DNA of 20,689 bases. Origin: a virus. Every line of letters begins with the position of its first letter. Within the stretch, counting starts at the first letter, position 1. This document shows positions 249 to 13,979 of the stretch, piece by piece. The stretch is from positions 1 to 20,689 of IMG/VR virus record IMGVR_UViG_3300033553_000418, one strand, 5' to 3'. The notes beneath the pieces were generated by a model. That model saw only the letters and a list, made by a program, of their open reading frames with translations, searched no databases and was not told where the DNA came from. A program made the translations under genes and the position numbers.

Positions 249-2063
249 TTAAACCAGCCGCAGCCCACCTGCTGCCGCGACGGGTGCGGTTTCTTCCATG
301 TCCAGCAGCCCGGCCAGCATCGTGTCCAGCTCGACTTCTGGTATTCCGTCCGGCCACGTCTCGCGCACCCAGGCGTTTTCTTCCGAGGTCAGCGGACGGC
401 GTAGCTGCGTGTAAGCCCAGCTGATGGCTGCCACATGTGTGTAGGGCTTGATCACGACCTGCAGCGGGTTGATCACATCGAGCTGGGTGCCGCGCTTGGG
501 CAGGTAGCTGGGGAGCATGGCGCGGGCTTCTGGCGCGAAGGGGTCGATCTCGCCCAGGAAAGCCGGGGTCTTGCCGTACTTGGCTTTCTTGGCCTCGCGC
601 AGGGTGTTGGCGCCGTAGGCCTCTTTCATCATGGCCTTGCGGTTGGTATCAACCAGCGTGTCAGGCAGGGCGTTGAACCCCTCGCCGAAGATCGCCGCGT
701 CCTCCCGGATGCCGTCCAGACCGATGGCGAGCGGCGCGCAGGATGTCCAGGTGTCCGCGCCGGTATCCAGCGCGCGCACCCGCACGTACTGCACCCCGCG
801 CTCGTCGCGCTCGTAGGGGTTGAGGCTCACTTCCACCTTTCCACTCACGTACACGCCAGGCACTGCTGACACGTCGTAGCGCGCGCCCTTGAGCCGCGCT
901 GGGGCGTAGGAAATCGACAGGTCGCCTTCCACCGTGCGGGTTTCCACCTTGCTGGTGGGCAGCGCGCGCATGATGGCCTCGTCCGGGGCGATGCGCAGGT
1001 GCTCGGCGCGGATCGTGTTCCAAAGTGCGTAGCGGGTGTGGCCGTGGCGACCGTGGATACGCAGGGAGTTGAAGCCGTGCGCCCAGGTCAGCGCCCTGGC
1101 ATTCAGCTCGTCCAGGTTGTCGGTCACGCAAAACGCCAGCTTGTGCTCGAACTTGGTCTCGACAATGTTCTGGCTGCCCTCAACGCCGCCGGTAGCGCGC
1201 GGGTTTCCCGGCATGTGCGTGATGTGGCGAACGTCCAGCGCCTGCAGAAAGCTCTCGAATAGATAGCCGCGGTTGCTCGATCCGGCGTCGTCGTGAAGAA
1301 TCCACGGCACCCCGAACACCGGCATCGCCTCGCCACTCTGAAAGCGCTGCTGGGTGCACCAGATGAAGAAGTCGATCAGGTTTTCCGAGGTCTCCGCGCC
1401 CATGTAGTAGCGCACCATGATCGCCCCGCTGTAGCCGTCCCACATCACGTAGCGGATCACCCGCTGCGACTCGATCCGCTTCACGTTCTCCGGCTTGTTC
1501 TTGTAGAACACCCCTTCGTCCATCAGCTGGGCACCGCTATCGTCCAGGTAGAACACCACGCACACCGAGGCGTCTATTTCCCAGGTGTAGTTGGGGTGCT
1601 TGTAGCGCATCGGCATGTGCGGCGAGGGTGCGGCCAGCTGCCCGGGATGCATGCCATGCTTGCGCATCGCGCGGGAAATCGTCGATGCGTGCGCAGGCAC
1701 GATCTCGCCGGTTTCCTTATCCACCCGCCCCGCCACGATCTTGCCGTTCTCGCGCATCATCTCGGCGCCATCGGCGATGCACAGCGTGCGCTTGCCGTTC
1801 TTGCGCGTGGCCGACGCCAGCGTCGTCCCCATCACCCTGACATCCTCGTCCGACAGGCAGCTCGTGCCTTTGTCGGCGCGGGTCTTGCGGCCGTCGCTGT
1901 AGCCCACCTGTTTCAGGTAGCGGTGCAAGGTCGCCAAGCTGCAGTTCAACTGCCGCGCCATGCTTTCTTTCAGTGCCGCCTTTTGCCCCTTGGCCGCCTG
2001 CGCAAGCTGGGAGCATAGGGACCGCAGGGACAGCACCTGGTCGGGAGTGAGCGAAACAGCCAT
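249..2063 (-). CDS. A: MuA-like DDE transposase
   Basis: A 604-aa transposase of a Mu-like phage, which would cut and join the phage ends during integration and replicative transposition. The N-terminal ~130 residues carry helix-turn-helix segments for end binding. The catalytic core has D164 (in WEIDAS), D259 (in ILHDDAGSSNRG) and E295 (in GGVEGSQNIVE); D259 and E295 are 35 residues apart, a DD35E spacing. A beta-barrel-like region follows (~380-450) and then a C-terminal tail that would contact the B protein. I chose the ATG at 2063 over the one at 2105: the upstream one overlaps the preceding gene by 32 bp and lacks a ribosome site, while 2063 begins 10 bp after that gene's stop and has AAGG upstream. 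It is the last gene of the early operon before a hairpin and terminator. The protein looks intact. Confidence 0.93.
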   Translation of the reverse strand: MAVSLTPDQVLSLRSLCSQLAQAAKGQKAALKESMARQLNCSLATLHRYLKQVGYSDGRKTRADKGTSCLSDEDVRVMGTTLASATRKNGKRTLCIADGAEMMRENGKIVAGRVDKETGEIVPAHASTISRAMRKHGMHPGQLAAPSPHMPMRYKHPNYTWEIDASVCVVFYLDDSGAQLMDEGVFYKNKPENVKRIESQRVIRYVMWDGYSGAIMVRYYMGAETSENLIDFFIWCTQQRFQSGEAMPVFGVPWILHDDAGSSNRGYLFESFLQALDVRHITHMPGNPRATGGVEGSQNIVETKFEHKLAFCVTDNLDELNARALTWAHGFNSLRIHGRHGHTRYALWNTIRAEHLRIAPDEAIMRALPTSKVETRTVEGDLSISYAPARLKGARYDVSAVPGVYVSGKVEVSLNPYERDERGVQYVRVRALDTGADTWTSCAPLAIGLDGIREDAAIFGEGFNALPDTLVDTNRKAMMKEAYGANTLREAKKAKYGKTPAFLGEIDPFAPEARAMLPSYLPKRGTQLDVINPLQVVIKPYTHVAAISWAYTQLRRPLTSEENAWVRETWPDGIPEVELDTMLAGLLDMEETAPVAAAGGLRLV

Positions 2064-2073
2064 GAGACAGGCC

Positions 2074-2322
2074 TTAGAGAGGTTGATCGAGGTTGTCGGT
2101 GACATTGAAGATGTCGATGTCCGTCATGCCGCCCTGTTTGGCGATTTCCACGATGCTTCGCAACGCCACGTGGTAGGCGCTGCATTGATGGAACAGCAAT
2201 TCCAATAGCTCGCGCGCTGCGGCGATGTCTGATTTGGCCTGTGGTGTTGCGGCGTCGTGTGCCAGCTTGAGCCGAGCGCACGCGGCCTCATAAACGGCTA
2301 GTTCACGCGGGTAGCGGCTCAT
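2074..2322 (-). CDS. small early phage protein, unknown function
   Basis: An 82-aa mostly helical protein (MSRYPRELAVYEAACARLKL...). The ATG overlaps the stop of the 318-aa gene upstream by four bases (ATGA, 2319-2322), and the transposase starts 10 bp after its stop, so it is firmly embedded in the early operon and probably translationally coupled. It has no signal peptide, membrane segment or metal-binding cluster. I do not recognise the family; a role in early transcription or transposition control is only suggested by position. Confidence 0.75.
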   Translation of the reverse strand: MSRYPRELAVYEAACARLKLAHDAATPQAKSDIAAARELLELLFHQCSAYHVALRSIVEIAKQGGMTDIDIFNVTDNLDQPL

Positions 2323-5275: not shown

Positions 5276-5517
5276 AAAAGCCGTTCACGCTGGCGCCGGG
5301 CCATGTGTCGGACGATGTGGTTGAGTCGCTGGAATTCCTGCTGGAGCGGGCGAGGAATGGCGAGGTGTTCGGCATTGCCTACGTTGCGCAATTGAAGCCG
5401 CGCGCCGTTATCATGGACACGGCCGGCGAATCGCACCGCAATCCGTTGTTCGCGTTGAGCATGCTCAGCGTGTTGGTGGCGCAGTTGACGGATCGCGTGC
5501 GGGGACGTGTGGAGTGA
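5272..5517 (+). CDS. small protein co-transcribed with the repressor, unknown
   Basis: An 81-aa protein (MKKPFTLAPGHVSDDVVESL...). Its ATG overlaps the repressor stop by four bases (ATGA), implying translational coupling. It has two predicted helical segments around a short hydrophobic strand region (FGIAYVAQLKPRAVIMD). It has no signal peptide or convincing membrane segment. I have the impression of similar small proteins beside phage repressors, but I cannot name the family. It may modulate the repressor or act in immunity. Confidence 0.7.
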   Translation: MKKPFTLAPGHVSDDVVESLEFLLERARNGEVFGIAYVAQLKPRAVIMDTAGESHRNPLFALSMLSVLVAQLTDRVRGRVE

Positions 5518-5566
5518 AACCGGCGAAGAGAAAAATTAAACGACAATAGGCTAGAGGGAGAGATAA

Positions 5567-6226
5567 ATGAGTGATGCGGCTGGCTTTTCTGCGTTGGCGA
5601 TCTTTGCCATTTCATGGGCGGTATTTGCTACCGCGGGGAGACAAAAGGGATGGCCTGGAATCATTCGGCATGGGGGCGGATTAGTAGTGGGCCTGGTGGT
5701 GCTGATGCTAGGCGTCGTGGCCTTCTCGCCATCAGAGCCAGAGCGGTCAACCGTTTCCGAGGCGTCGCAGCAGCCATCTAAACTGGCTGAGAAGCCAGCG
5801 GGGCTGGGCGTTACGCGGGCGCAATTTGCAGACCGCTGGAATTCGATCAGCCAGAACGAGATCGGCGCCATCGAGCTGACCGAGGGTGCGGCAAAGATTG
5901 ACCTCGCCAAGAACCAGGGGCTCTTGCTGACCAGCAAGAATGAGAGTGGCTTGGTTGATGGCGCCATGTTCATGTTTGCGCCACAAACCGATCTGGAAGC
6001 GCTCAATGCGATGATCAACGTGGCAGCGATCATCGGGTCCACCAATCCTGAGCTGGCGCCGGATCAGCGAGGGGAAATCATGAGACGCCTTCGCATGACG
6101 GGAGATGATGCGGACTATGAGTTTGCTGATGGCGAGCGCACTAGAACGCAGGTGGTTGGATCGGTGAAGTATTACTTCACGCAGATCGCCGGCCTTCTGG
6201 TGTTCGGGGCTGAGGCTCCAGACTGA
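5567..6226 (+). CDS. two-TM membrane protein, candidate moron
   Basis: A 219-aa protein with AGGGAGAG just upstream of the ATG. Two hydrophobic segments (about residues 7-24 and 36-54, the second GLVVGLVVLMLGVVAF) anchor it in the inner membrane. A linker follows (~55-80) and then a ~140-residue soluble domain that does not match a family I know. Its GC content looks lower than that of the late genes. It lies 49 bp after the repressor-linked gene, points the same way, and ends before a minus-strand terminator. The position next to the repressor suggests expression in the lysogen, so a role in lysogenic conversion or superinfection exclusion is possible but unproven. Confidence 0.75.
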   Translation: MSDAAGFSALAIFAISWAVFATAGRQKGWPGIIRHGGGLVVGLVVLMLGVVAFSPSEPERSTVSEASQQPSKLAEKPAGLGVTRAQFADRWNSISQNEIGAIELTEGAAKIDLAKNQGLLLTSKNESGLVDGAMFMFAPQTDLEALNAMINVAAIIGSTNPELAPDQRGEIMRRLRMTGDDADYEFADGERTRTQVVGSVKYYFTQIAGLLVFGAEAPD

Positions 6227-6248
6227 GAATCGCCAATCTGAGGCGTTG

Positions 6249-6281
6249 AAAAACAATCGGACGGCCCATGAGTCGTCCGAT
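6249..6281 (-). terminator. intrinsic terminator for the minus-strand gpG cassette
   Basis: ATCGGACG (6256-6263) and CGTCCGAT (6274-6281) form a perfect 8-bp stem with a 10-base loop. Read leftward, the stem is followed after two bases by five T residues. It ends transcripts coming from the gpG gene, whose stop is 62 bp away. It may also act weakly on the converging membrane-protein gene. Confidence 0.68.
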
Positions 6282-6291
6282 GAGATTAAAA

Positions 6292-6323
6292 CGGTTTGTG
6301 AGTGGGTTTGATGTCACAAACCG
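6292..6323. repeat. inverted repeat beside the terminator
   Basis: CGGTTTGTG and CACAAACCG are perfect 9-base arms around a 14-base spacer. It lies between the gpG stop and the T-tailed hairpin. It has no T-run and could be a 3'-end stabiliser or a protein-binding site between the two converging genes. Confidence 0.5.
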
Positions 6324-6342
6324 GCATGCCGTTAGCCTTGCC

Positions 6343-6912
6343 TCACTTCAGACTCTCGATGAAATCCCGCATCGTATCCAGGATGCTTTCGCGGTCGTGA
6401 TCTGACACGCCGAGGAATGGCCGTGCGGGGATGTCGCCCCACAAATGCTTGAACTGCGATTTCTTGCCGCCAAAGTGCTGCATGGCGCCGTATGCCTCCG
6501 GGGTGCCTACATGCACACTCTCGCCAACGACCTGGTAGTTGATGCGCAGCGAGAGCGCTTTCCCTTCGCCGATCAGCGGCTTCTTGGCCGCCAGAATGGA
6601 GCCAGACCGTTTGCTCAGGCGGCCTTTGTCGTCGCCGCGCTTGAGGTAGTACCCGTTCTTCGTACCGACGCGCTTGCCCGTTTCCTTGTCGTGGATGCCG
6701 CTGCGGCGGCGAAGATCCTCCAGGAGCGTCGTCGGGCTGTTCTCTTGCCAGCGGGTGCCGTCCGGGCCGGTGCTGGTTTGGAAGCGCGGCTTGGTCGAGC
6801 CGACCAGAACTTCACCGATGGCCTTGAGTAGCGGCTGCGGGCGTTTGACGGCATTGAGAGTCCTGCGCAGTACACGCTGCACCTCGGCGTCTTCTACTTC
6901 GATTCCAATCAT
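6343..6912 (-). CDS. G: phage virion morphogenesis protein (Mu gpG / P2 gpS type)
   Basis: A 189-aa protein starting at the ATG at 6912 (MIGIEVEDAEVQRVLRRTLN). An upstream in-frame extension to 7173 reads through two membrane-protein genes in another frame and is rejected. The C-terminal region has the features of the phage_tail_S family: VGTPEAYGAMQHFGG, then IPARPFLGVSDHDRESILDT. These proteins act in tail completion and head-tail joining. The gene overlaps the 66-aa membrane gene by four bases, so it is the third member of a leftward cassette. In Mu this gene precedes the protease I on the same strand; here it lies next to I but points away. No neighbouring portal or gpF gene is present. 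Confidence 0.85.
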   Translation of the reverse strand: MIGIEVEDAEVQRVLRRTLNAVKRPQPLLKAIGEVLVGSTKPRFQTSTGPDGTRWQENSPTTLLEDLRRRSGIHDKETGKRVGTKNGYYLKRGDDKGRLSKRSGSILAAKKPLIGEGKALSLRINYQVVGESVHVGTPEAYGAMQHFGGKKSQFKHLWGDIPARPFLGVSDHDRESILDTMRDFIESLK

Positions 6913-7109
6913 GGTTTGCTCCTTTCTAGCGCTTTGGCAAGAATCTCGTGGCGACGAGTCTCCTCCCGGGAAAGCTGAACACGTGTTGTAATTTCTTCGG
7001 CGGATTTTTTGTCCGCGCTCCGCGACCGCAGGAAATTCGTATAAGCAACTGTCGCCCCAATGATCGCGGCCGCACCGACCACGGCGACAGCCAGCAATAC
7101 CTGGCTCAT
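6909..7109 (-). CDS. small membrane-anchored coiled-coil protein
   Basis: A 66-aa protein with one N-terminal hydrophobic segment (residues ~3-23, LLAVAVVGAAAIIGATVAYT), then a charged helix likely to form a coiled coil (TRVQLSREETRRHEILAKAL). It overlaps the genes on both sides by four bases each (ATGA at 7106-7109 and 6909-6912), so the three are translated as a unit. The topology fits a small spanin- or holin-accessory protein, but no lysozyme is nearby and the function is unknown. Confidence 0.7.
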   Translation of the reverse strand: MSQVLLAVAVVGAAAIIGATVAYTNFLRSRSADKKSAEEITTRVQLSREETRRHEILAKALERSKP

Positions 7110-7333
7110 TTTCCGCCGCCGTTACGTTTCTTTGCGCTCGCCGCTTTCTCCGGGTGGCGTTCCCTCCATTCACTCACGGCTTCTTCGAGTTCGCGGAGGG
7201 TGAGCCAGGCGCCGGCCCCGCGCCACGCTGCGTCGGCGACAAGCCGTGCGATGAGCCAGGCGATGAGCAGCATCACAAGCAGGCCTGCACCTGCCATGAT
7301 GGTGCCGCCGATTAGGATGGCTGTGGATTGCAT
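7106..7333 (-). CDS. small membrane protein, first gene of the inverted cassette
   Basis: A 75-aa protein starting at the ATG at 7333, with GAGGG seven bases upstream; a start at 7390 would run into the late leader and is rejected. One strong hydrophobic segment spans residues ~5-32 (AILIGGTIMAGAGLLVMLLI), followed by an amphipathic charged tail (LTLRELEEAVSEWRERHPEK) with a basic end. Two small membrane proteins in tandem recall holin or holin/antiholin pairs, but neither the sequence nor the neighbours establish that. Confidence 0.68.
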   Translation of the reverse strand: MQSTAILIGGTIMAGAGLLVMLLIAWLIARLVADAAWRGAGAWLTLRELEEAVSEWRERHPEKAASAKKRNGGGK

Positions 7334-7387
7334 GTTCGTTCCCTCGGTAGTGGTGGTGCGTGTACTGTAGCCGCTCCGAACCCCCGC

Positions 7388-7444
7388 CAAAAACTAACCC
7401 CGGTTAGTCTCTACCCCCGCGCGCGCGGGTTGAAACTGCGCGGC
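7388..7444 (+). promoter_or_regulatory. late leader element, copy 1 (before protease I)
   Basis: CAAAAACTAACCCCGGTTAG (7388-7407) contains the dyad CTAACC-cc-GGTTAG. It is followed by a perfect 14-base GC palindrome (7416-7429) and then the ATG at 7445. A related 20-mer (16 of 20 matches) lies exactly the same distance, 57 nt, before the gp37 ATG. Mu has a C-activated late promoter upstream of I, so an activator site is a reasonable reading. No recognisable -10 or Shine-Dalgarno is seen. Confidence 0.5.
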
Positions 7445-8461
7445 ATGTTGACCAGATACGCCGCGCTCTCGTTTGCCATCACCCCCAATGCGCAGGGGGA
7501 AATCCAGCTCACGCCCGCCGGGGTGTTCCGTGGCCGTGACGGCCGCCCGGTCGAGGTTGATGGCTTCCGGATGGACGCCGTTTCCGCCGCCAAAGTCGCC
7601 GCGCTTGCAGCTGCGCGCAAAACCCCCTTCGTCATCGACTACGAACACCAGACGCTCGCCAGCGAGAAGAACGGCCAGCCCGCGCCCGCCGCCGGCTGGT
7701 TCAAGGCGCTGGAATGGCGCGAGGGTTCAGGGCTCTACGCCACCGACGTGGAATGGACGGCCAAAGCCCGCGCGCACATCGACGCCGGCGAATACAAATT
7801 CATCAGCCCGGTCTTCAGCTACCACCCGAAAACCGGCGAAGTGCTGCGGATGCATATGGCCGCGCTCACCAATAATCCCGCGCTCGACGGCATGGATGCC
7901 GTGGCGGCGCTGGCGACCGAGTTTTTCACCCGCTCGCAAGAGCCCACCATCAAAGAGGATCGACCCATGAAGGCTATCGCCATTCTGCTGGGTCTGGCCG
8001 ACGACGCGAGCGAGGCGGAGATCACCACCGCACTCGCCGCGCTCAAGGCCAAGACCGGCGAACAGGACACCACCATCGCTGCGCTCAAGACGCAGTCGCC
8101 CGACCCGGCCAAATACGTGCCGATCGAAACCGTGACGCAGCTGCAGACCGACCTGGCCGCGCTGAGCACCCGCCTCAACGACGGCGAGCTGGACAGCGTG
8201 ATCGAAGGCGCACTCGACGCCGGCAAGCTGCTGCCGGCAATGGAAAGCTGGGCGCGCGAGCTCGGCAAGTCCAACCTCGCCGCGCTCAAGACTTACATCG
8301 AGAAGACCCCGGCGATCGCCGCGCTCAAGGGCACGCAGACCGGCGGACGCGGCCCTGCTGGCGCCGGCGGCGCGATCGACGATGCAACCAACACCGCGGT
8401 GATGAAAGCGCTGGGGCAGACCCCCGAGCAATTCGCCACCGGCAAAATCAAGGAGGACTGA
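7445..8461 (+). CDS. I: Mu-like prohead protease (I protein) with fused scaffold
   Basis: A 338-aa protein from the ATG at 7445; in-frame codons back to 7328 overlap the opposing gene and the late leader, so they are excluded. The N-terminal ~170 residues are the protease: conserved-looking PFVIDYEHQTL, AAGWFKALEWREGSGLYATD and YKFISPVFSYH. The C-terminal half (~175-338) is helical and acidic, fits a scaffold, and can be made alone from an internal start. The protease trims scaffold and head proteins during capsid maturation. It is the first late gene of the plus strand in this window and ends three bases before the decoration-protein gene. No Shine-Dalgarno is visible upstream of its ATG. 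Confidence 0.92.
   Translation: MLTRYAALSFAITPNAQGEIQLTPAGVFRGRDGRPVEVDGFRMDAVSAAKVAALAAARKTPFVIDYEHQTLASEKNGQPAPAAGWFKALEWREGSGLYATDVEWTAKARAHIDAGEYKFISPVFSYHPKTGEVLRMHMAALTNNPALDGMDAVAALATEFFTRSQEPTIKEDRPMKAIAILLGLADDASEAEITTALAALKAKTGEQDTTIAALKTQSPDPAKYVPIETVTQLQTDLAALSTRLNDGELDSVIEGALDAGKLLPAMESWARELGKSNLAALKTYIEKTPAIAALKGTQTGGRGPAGAGGAIDDATNTAVMKALGQTPEQFATGKIKED
7967..8461 (+). CDS. Z: nested in-frame scaffold protein (Mu Z-like)
   Basis: Within the protease gene, an ATG at 7967 is preceded by AGAGGA, giving a 164-aa product identical to residues 175-338 of the I protein. In Mu the scaffold Z is made in the same way from inside gene I. The product is rich in alanine and helical (LDSVIEGALDAGKLLPAMES), as expected for a scaffold. 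The internal ribosome site is better than that of the full-length gene, which fits a need for many scaffold copies per protease. Confidence 0.65.
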   Translation: MKAIAILLGLADDASEAEITTALAALKAKTGEQDTTIAALKTQSPDPAKYVPIETVTQLQTDLAALSTRLNDGELDSVIEGALDAGKLLPAMESWARELGKSNLAALKTYIEKTPAIAALKGTQTGGRGPAGAGGAIDDATNTAVMKALGQTPEQFATGKIKED

Positions 8462-8887: not shown

Positions 8888-9784
8888 ATGCTCATTACCG
8901 CAGCAACTCTCCTCGCCCTGCAGCAGGGCTTCAACGCAGCATTCGCCCAGGGCTTTGGCAGCGCCGCGCCGAGCTGGGGCCAGGTCGCCATGCGCGTCCC
9001 GTCCACCGCCGACGCCGAGAACTACGGCTGGATGAAGGAAATGCCCGGCATGCGTGAGTGGATCGGCAAGCGCGTCATCCATAACCTGGAAGCCACCGCC
9101 GCCAAGCTCATCAACAAGCACTACGAGCACACCATCGGCGTCGACGCCGACCACATCCGCGACGACAAGCTCGGCATCTACGCGCCGATGTTTTCGATGC
9201 AGGGCGAGATCGCCGGGCGCCACCCCGACCAGCTGGTGTGGGGCCTGCTGCCGACCGGCTTCGCCGTCAAGGGTTTCGATGGACAGTACTTCTTCGACAC
9301 CGACCACGTCGGCTACGACGCCAACGGCGCGGAAACCGCCTGGAGCAACACCGGCGGCGGCGCGGGCGCACCGTGGTTTCTGATGGACCTGTCGCGCAAC
9401 TTCATGAAGCCGCTGATCTTCCAGGACCGCTCGCCGACCAACTTCGTCAGCCTGGACCGCGACACCGACCTCAACGCGTTCATGGATCGCCAGTTCCTCT
9501 ACGGCGTCGATGCGCGCTACGTCGCGGGCTTCGGTTTCCACCAGCTGGCCTACGGCTCCAAGGCCGCGCTCGACGCCGCCAGCTTTGCCGCCGCACGCCT
9601 GGTGCTGGAAACCCAGAAGCGCCCCGACGGCACCCCGCTGCCGGTGATGGCCACGCACCTGGTGTGCGGCCCCAGCAACCGGGCGGCTGCCGAGGCCATC
9701 CTGAAGAAGGAATACCTGGCCGCCGGCGAGACCAACACCAACTACAAAGCGGTCGAGCTCGTCGTCAACCCGTTCCTGGGCTAA
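8888..9784 (+). CDS. T: Mu-like major head subunit gpT
   Basis: A 298-aa major capsid protein. The features of the Mu gpT family are clear: an N-terminal LLALQQGFNAAFAQGFG, VPSTADAENYGWMKEMPGMR, EWIGKRVIHNLEATAAKLIN and a C-terminal LVCGPSNRAAAEAILKKEYL then ELVVNPFLG. The full length is present. AAGGA precedes the ATG. It follows the decoration gene by 12 bp and is followed by a stable hairpin. It forms the icosahedral shell after proteolysis of the scaffold. Confidence 0.95.
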   Translation: MLITAATLLALQQGFNAAFAQGFGSAAPSWGQVAMRVPSTADAENYGWMKEMPGMREWIGKRVIHNLEATAAKLINKHYEHTIGVDADHIRDDKLGIYAPMFSMQGEIAGRHPDQLVWGLLPTGFAVKGFDGQYFFDTDHVGYDANGAETAWSNTGGGAGAPWFLMDLSRNFMKPLIFQDRSPTNFVSLDRDTDLNAFMDRQFLYGVDARYVAGFGFHQLAYGSKAALDAASFAAARLVLETQKRPDGTPLPVMATHLVCGPSNRAAAEAILKKEYLAAGETNTNYKAVELVVNPFLG

Positions 9785-13922: not shown

Positions 13923-13979
13923 CAAAAACCAACCCGCGTTAAACCCGGCCGCGCCCTGCGCGCGCGCAAAGTCCGGGTC
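13923..13979 (+). promoter_or_regulatory. late leader element, copy 2 (before gp37)
   Basis: CAAAAACCAACCCGCGTTAA (13923-13942) matches the element before the protease gene at 16 of 20 positions, with the first 13 bases identical but for one. It is followed by a hairpin with arms ACCCGG (13943-13948) and CCGGGT (13973-13978) and then the ATG at 13980. The distance from motif start to ATG is 57 nt in both copies. No Shine-Dalgarno is visible. Confidence 0.5.

Follow-up and report, generated by a model that had tools for sequence, protein, structure and literature searches.

Burkholderia phage KS10 (NC_011216; PMC2628397) is a transposable phage in which the capsid module is divided: one end holds F, portal, terL and terS on a single strand, and the opposite strand holds the protease, capsid and tail genes (PMC2628397). 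In 2008 its authors described this division as unique to that phage, to their knowledge. The early genes of KS10 are codirectional with the I-tail genes, and its gpG lies downstream of the capsid gene, on the same strand and before the sheath gene. RcapMu has the orders terS-terL-portal-F-G and I-T-tail, with G and I as codirectional neighbours, as in Mu. The Mu-like phages L064, L072, L078 and L227 carry gpG outside the F-I interval, between T and sheath, on the strand of I and T. In the open-licence PMC literature consulted, PMC2628397 and PMC8705779 included, only the KS10 description bears on an inverted gpG or a split head module in Mu-like phages.

Here we analyse a viral contig of 20,689 nucleotides (the window, meaning the whole stretch analysed), in which gpG and I are divergent and the two halves of the head module lie apart, unlike the codirectional arrangement of RcapMu. 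The gene orders within the two halves are otherwise like those of RcapMu. In KS10, gpG is on the strand of the capsid gene, unlike that of the window.

Results

The window carries one half of a Mu-like prophage

The window is the entire contig C42, one of 90 in a metagenome-assembled genome (MAG) that is 81% complete, and it contains one half of a Mu-like prophage (Table 1). Its minus strand bears the start of MuB, MuA and regulators; a repressor-type gene (HTH_3) and two more ORFs come next, and then a cassette of three minus-strand genes (mem2, mem1 and gpG). Past the cassette, the plus strand bears I, T, sheath, tube and baseplate genes. At its left end the contig breaks off within MuB, and at its right end within an open ORF, stopping short of the prophage ends; TG...CA ends are present in a complete 37.4-kb relative, G060 (IMG/VR 3300033232_000040, 38,424 bases). 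The T, sheath and baseplate genes were labelled by profile matching to genes annotated in a Vibrio phage and in KS10, and 5272, 5567, reg1 and p4623 are working labels. For gene I, the first ATG was taken as the start, and the Mu-like_Pro profile match was run on 7451-8461.

Terminase, portal and gpF, noted as missing at this site in a preliminary description made from the sequence, gave no match within the window. MuA, I and the MuB start in the window, together with the activator, terS and terL on another contig of the MAG (C75, below), place the prophage among the Mu-like transposable phages. The portal and F genes of this set were seen in the relatives G060 and L138 only.

Table 1 Features of the window and the basis of each assignment
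Feature	Positions	Strand	Basis or remark
MuB N-terminus, 38 residues	5..118	-	76% identical to G060 MuB; cut by contig end
MuA-type transposase	249..2105	-	phrog_310
Hairpin cluster, likely cassette terminator	6228..6330		between converging 5567 ORF and gpG
gpG, tail completion / virion morphogenesis protein, 189 aa	6343..6912	-	PF05069, phrog_26, TIGR01635, fold
mem1, 66 aa	6909..7109	-	ATGA overlap with gpG; one hydrophobic stretch by eye
mem2, 75 aa, first cassette gene	7106..7333	-	hydrophobic stretch and charged C-terminal tail by eye
TACAGT, -10-like box toward mem2/gpG	7364..7369	-	24 nt from palindrome; same spacing in G061
Palindrome CTAACC-CC-GGTTAG, candidate late-activator site	7394..7407		between mem2 and I
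GAAACT, -10-like position	7432..7437	+	24 nt from palindrome; 7 nt before gene I ATG
Gene I, head maturation protease, first gene of rightward I-T-tail block	7445..8461	+	Mu-like_Pro E 4.3e-105
Gene T, major head protein	8888..9784	+	profile matches annotated major head gene of Vibrio phage
Second late-promoter-like palindrome	13929..13942	+	before 13980 ORF, upstream of sheath

gpG is inverted in a divergent three-gene cassette

The preliminary description had placed gpG, inverted, in a minus-strand cassette with two small membrane proteins, and the profile matches bear this out. The cassette starts at 7333 and is divergent from the plus-strand gene I. Its three reading frames are all open and overlap at the proposed ATGA junctions (6909-6912 and 7106-7109). 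The same description put gpG beside I on the opposite strand; the strands are indeed opposite, but mem1 and mem2 separate the two genes. Each of the mem proteins is a predicted membrane protein, judged by eye from a single long hydrophobic stretch close to the N-terminus, and the best family match of either in profile searches had an E-value of 0.0091.

A terminator of its own had also been proposed for the cassette, and the hairpin cluster 3' of gpG is likely to be one. Over 6225-6342, the minus-strand RNA has a folding energy of -38.1 kcal/mol, whereas shuffled versions average -27.0 (z -3.2) and none of 200 reached so low a value, and an 8-pair hairpin followed by UUGUUUUU can be read there, though a simple terminator scan with a loop limit of 8 did not list this hairpin (3 plus-strand matches and none on the minus strand, 2.3 expected).

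Both sequence and residues with fold assign gpG to the gpG / P2 S tail completion family. It matches PF05069 Phage_tail_S (E 6.7e-21; 75.2 bits, cut-off 24.3), phrog_26 'tail completion or Neck1' (E 2.9e-30) and TIGR01635 tail_comp_S (44.7 bits, cut-off 37.65), and it retains G33, R43, L120, G148 and R164, which are invariant across 34 sequences. Its structure model (pLDDT 79.4) matches eight viral models at E <= 0.001, with E-values of 1.3e-5 to 7.6e-4 and modest TM-scores of 0.44-0.57 by query length; the named ones are mostly virion morphogenesis or tail completion proteins, one of them from Burkholderia phage phiX216. Searches of the PDB by sequence and by fold gave no match to gpG.

A sister phage carries the same inversion

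The same inversion, at the same cassette position, is found in an independent contig, the sister phage G061 (IMG/VR 3300033553_000170). In protein sequence, the two phages are 66% identical in G, 92% in mem2 (71 residues) and 39% in MuA, and they are 81-88% identical at the nucleotide level over the cassette and near flanks; mem1 is absent from G061. The ends of C42 inside MuB and an open ORF and the incompleteness of the bin would be compatible with a mis-joined assembly or a decayed prophage remnant. However, the shared inversion, cassette and flanks in G061 contradict a mis-join, the possibility raised in the preliminary description, and together with the open frames of the cassette and a gpG dN/dS below 1 they make either very improbable.

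Between the window and G061, dN is 0.21 and dS is 0.56 for gpG (170 codons; dN/dS ~0.37), indicating that gpG is under purifying selection. The corresponding pairs of dN and dS are 0.046/0.18 for T and 0.045/0.08 for mem2. That dS is larger in gpG suggests that this gene either was exchanged on its own or has changed faster. In a gpG tree built from 48 of 145 rows, the two inverted gpGs form a pair (100/100) that is sister to the G060 gpG at 92/80, a value under the starred level.

These data also bear on the suggestion in the preliminary description that gpG was recruited to a new role. Such a role, together with the two membrane proteins, would be non-structural, for example in superinfection exclusion or lysis, and would suit a separate divergent operon with two small proteins that lack a firm family match. 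It would also suit the weak similarity of mem1 to membrane morons (family match at E 0.0091) and to holins (family match at E 0.06). However, gpG keeps its conserved residues, its fold and its purifying selection, mem1 is missing from G061, and no second gpG was found in the MAG to cover the structural role. We thus regard recruitment as improbable; nothing that we found supports a new role for gpG. From the conserved residues and the modelled fold, we infer instead that the inverted gpG has kept its virion function.

Cassette-less relatives provide the empty site. The sequence block of the hairpin cluster is present in G061 and also in L032, where it aligns (75% over 102 positions) about 58 bp from the palindrome before I, with no cassette between. 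The folding energy of the L032 block does not stand out from that of shuffles (z -0.86, with 36 of 200 reaching it), so that L032 demonstrates the block as a sequence but not as a terminator. In G060, 167 bp separate the 5272 stop from the palindrome, with no cassette gene.

The inverted arrangement is rare

Among 214 loci, which overlap, 97 have no G/I pair, 98 have G upstream of I on one strand, 13 have G downstream on the same strand, and 6 have the two genes opposite, these six rows representing only the window phage and G061. By distinct gpG sequences (139, leaving out ORFs shorter than 120 aa, identical sequences and L001), the order is F>G>I in 84, F>G with nothing visible after in 31, T>G>sheath in 15 (the L064, L072, L078 and L227 type), inverted in 2, and other or unclear in 7. 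Most relatives examined therefore differ from the window, and the inversion is not their standard layout.

Wider searches agree. When 399 genomes of the order were searched with this gpG (E <= 1e-10), seven matched, the window's own included, and in the other six gpG is on the strand of F. A viral scan with the F protein of L138 returned 17 loci (L138, L265, which is G060, and L266-L280), with F and G on the same strand in 15 of 15 for L266-L280. A search of viral_contigs with mem2 found only G061, in which the three-gene order recurs in part, with the inversion, mem2 and gpG but without mem1. As a separate observation, L064, L072, L078, L096 and L227 have a sheath related to that of the window, with gpG between T and sheath rather than between F and I. 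Taken together, the inverted gpG looks like a rare variant of a known, little-described layout.

The other half of the head module

Using the G060 terL protein as a query, we located terL in the MAG on C75 (6,172 bases). One strand of C75 carries, in order, a GemA-like gene (phrog_286), a late transcriptional activator (phrog_532), an endolysin, a weak esterase match, nuclease-like and lipoprotein-like genes (the latter by eye), a DUF2730-like gene (phrog_736), phrog_436, terS and terL. The names GemA-like for phrog_286 and DUF2730-like for phrog_736 are working labels. At L250 3463-4005 and 3972-4604, 3' of the endolysin, C75 encodes a nuclease-like protein, hydrophobic by eye over an N-terminal stretch, and a weak match to esterases/lipases.

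C75 is 91% identical to G060 over 2,500 and 419 bp, and 86% identical at the nucleotide level over 5.2 kb to L138, its closest relative found. The early region of the window is 77-78% identical to G060, whose coordinates place about 6 kb between the left end of the window and C75. This synteny suggests that C75 and C42 belong to one prophage. Searches of the MAG gave no portal (PF06074), a weak result as 0 control genomes gave a match, and no F (PF04233), for which 4 of 14 control genomes gave a match.

The complete G060 has tail-T-I-5272-xre on one strand and CII, reg1, p4623, MuA, MuB ... terS, terL, portal, methyltransferase, F, second methyltransferase and gpG on the other. The element has matching ends: one copy of a 12-base inverted repeat lies at position 139 and the other ends at 37,552, which is 119 bp past its only gpG, the final gene. 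Over its terminal 864 bp, the G060 contig shares 89% identity with a part of C4, from the MAG of the window, that runs on there without interruption, so that host DNA is the most likely identity of the right flank; the left flank does not match that part of C4, and thus no target duplication is shown. In G060, the Mu order is in effect broken at G|I, and the I-tail half lies reversed on the far side of the repressor. G064 is also split: its I-tail genes share a strand with a CII-type gene, and the terS-G block occupies the opposite strand.

Three side observations concern these relatives. Two DNA methyltransferase genes flank F in G060, between portal and gpG (L131 15446-16228, 16951-17913), and F is 243 aa long in G060 and 543 aa in L138. 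Besides MuA and CII, the 39-kb IMG/VR contig G063 (L105/L135/L136) encodes a partial I-like protein that matches the I of the window over residues 17-153; the contig has no PF05069 match.

Divergent halves with the early genes between them, the KS10-type division, are thus complete in G060, and in this MAG are represented by C42 and C75 with terS and terL only. Unlike KS10, the window prophage and G060 have their early genes codirectional with the packaging half, MuA being opposite to I in both. The proposal that the head module is split, with its other half elsewhere, is therefore supported by the terminase genes on C75 and by the whole split in G060, but portal, F and a second gpG were not found in the MAG.

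A second gpG might nevertheless exist. In L138, so similar to C75, a gpG start (17 codons visible) lies behind F and a 59-aa ORF, so that this prophage may have two gpG genes, an ordinary one behind F and the divergent copy, which might be an allele, a spare copy or a form suited to a different tail. The G060 gpG behind F and a methyltransferase, and the dS of the inverted gpG, which exceeds that of T and mem2 as if it had been exchanged separately, point the same way. Conversely, the MAG shows a single gpG, though its portal-F region is unassembled, and no contig with both copies was seen. We consider two gpG genes a real but lesser possibility, our preferred reading being compatible with a divergent gpG that is not the only one.

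A candidate bidirectional late promoter between mem2 and I

The palindrome YTAACCNNGGTTAR lies upstream of I in the window, G061, G060 and L032. Weaker copies precede the endolysin operon in C75, G060 and L138; others lie before the window's 13980 ORF and before the G061 homologue of that ORF. The candidate sites agree by position with the Mu C-dependent late promoter type (activator site, poor -10, before lys and I). A general promoter scan of 5400-7600 found nothing.

More broadly, a late-promoter-like element of the form TTAAC-N4-GTTAA, 23/24 nt, NANNNT, 6-7 nt, ATG is seen in Mu-like phages (window 7394, 13929; L250 5301; L132 14848, 11153; L131 8740; L138 1772; L032 951), several with a GCGCGCG run in the spacer. 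The pattern of palindrome, 23/24 nt and NANNNT gave 14 matches in 8 sequences against 0.55 in shuffles, matches that are not independent since these sequences are related and the pattern was derived from them. At the remaining spacings between 10 and 39 there were 0-1 matches, except at 36 (5) and 39 (3). A start codon stands 6-7 nt further on in 10 of the 14 and is missing in four, three of them in the reverse direction, including one (13929, minus) without a gene to serve. Of 124 regions upstream of I, among which some contigs count twice, 13 carry the pattern, where the overall rate would predict 0.29. Because the start codon lies only 6-7 nt past NANNNT, the first mRNA base would fall at or beside the ATG, and the late mRNAs of these phages are predicted to be leaderless or nearly so.

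At 7394, both directions fit the pattern, in the window and in G061. The -10 position on the I side is weaker in the window (GAAACT) than in G060 and L032 (TATCGT). On the mem2 side, TACAGT stands 30 nt from the mem2 ATG, with a ribosome-binding-like GAGGGA and a predicted leader of about 24 nt. Judged from these motifs, one palindromic site might serve both directions, giving a nearly leaderless I mRNA and a mem2-mem1-gpG mRNA with an ordinary leader, and so keep late timing after the split; we offer this tentatively.

Discussion

The window is likely to represent the right-hand half of a transposable, Mu-like prophage, with its head module divided at gpG|gpI and gpG placed in a divergent cassette, still a virion part and probably expressed late through the site of gene I. 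Under this reading, the early genes, late activator, lysis genes, terS, terL, portal and F would run leftward off the window, C75 being a part of them, and I, T and the tail genes would run rightward. In this sub-lineage, gpG lies in the interval bounded by the hairpin cluster and the putative late promoter of gene I, and would either have given up its place after F at the prophage end or occupy both sites. The inverted gene would still make its virion part, and its transcription would probably start from the palindromic activator site of gene I, via a second -10 box on the opposite side, so that gpG and I could both be late despite lying on opposite strands.

A divided head module is already known from KS10, which, like the window prophage, is transposable, and the inverted gpG looks like a rare variant of it. 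The present locus is another case of a divided capsid module, oriented unlike KS10 and accompanied by a complete relative, and its own gpG stands across the head-module break and points the opposite way. The shared palindrome would allow a direct test of how a displaced gene keeps its late timing.
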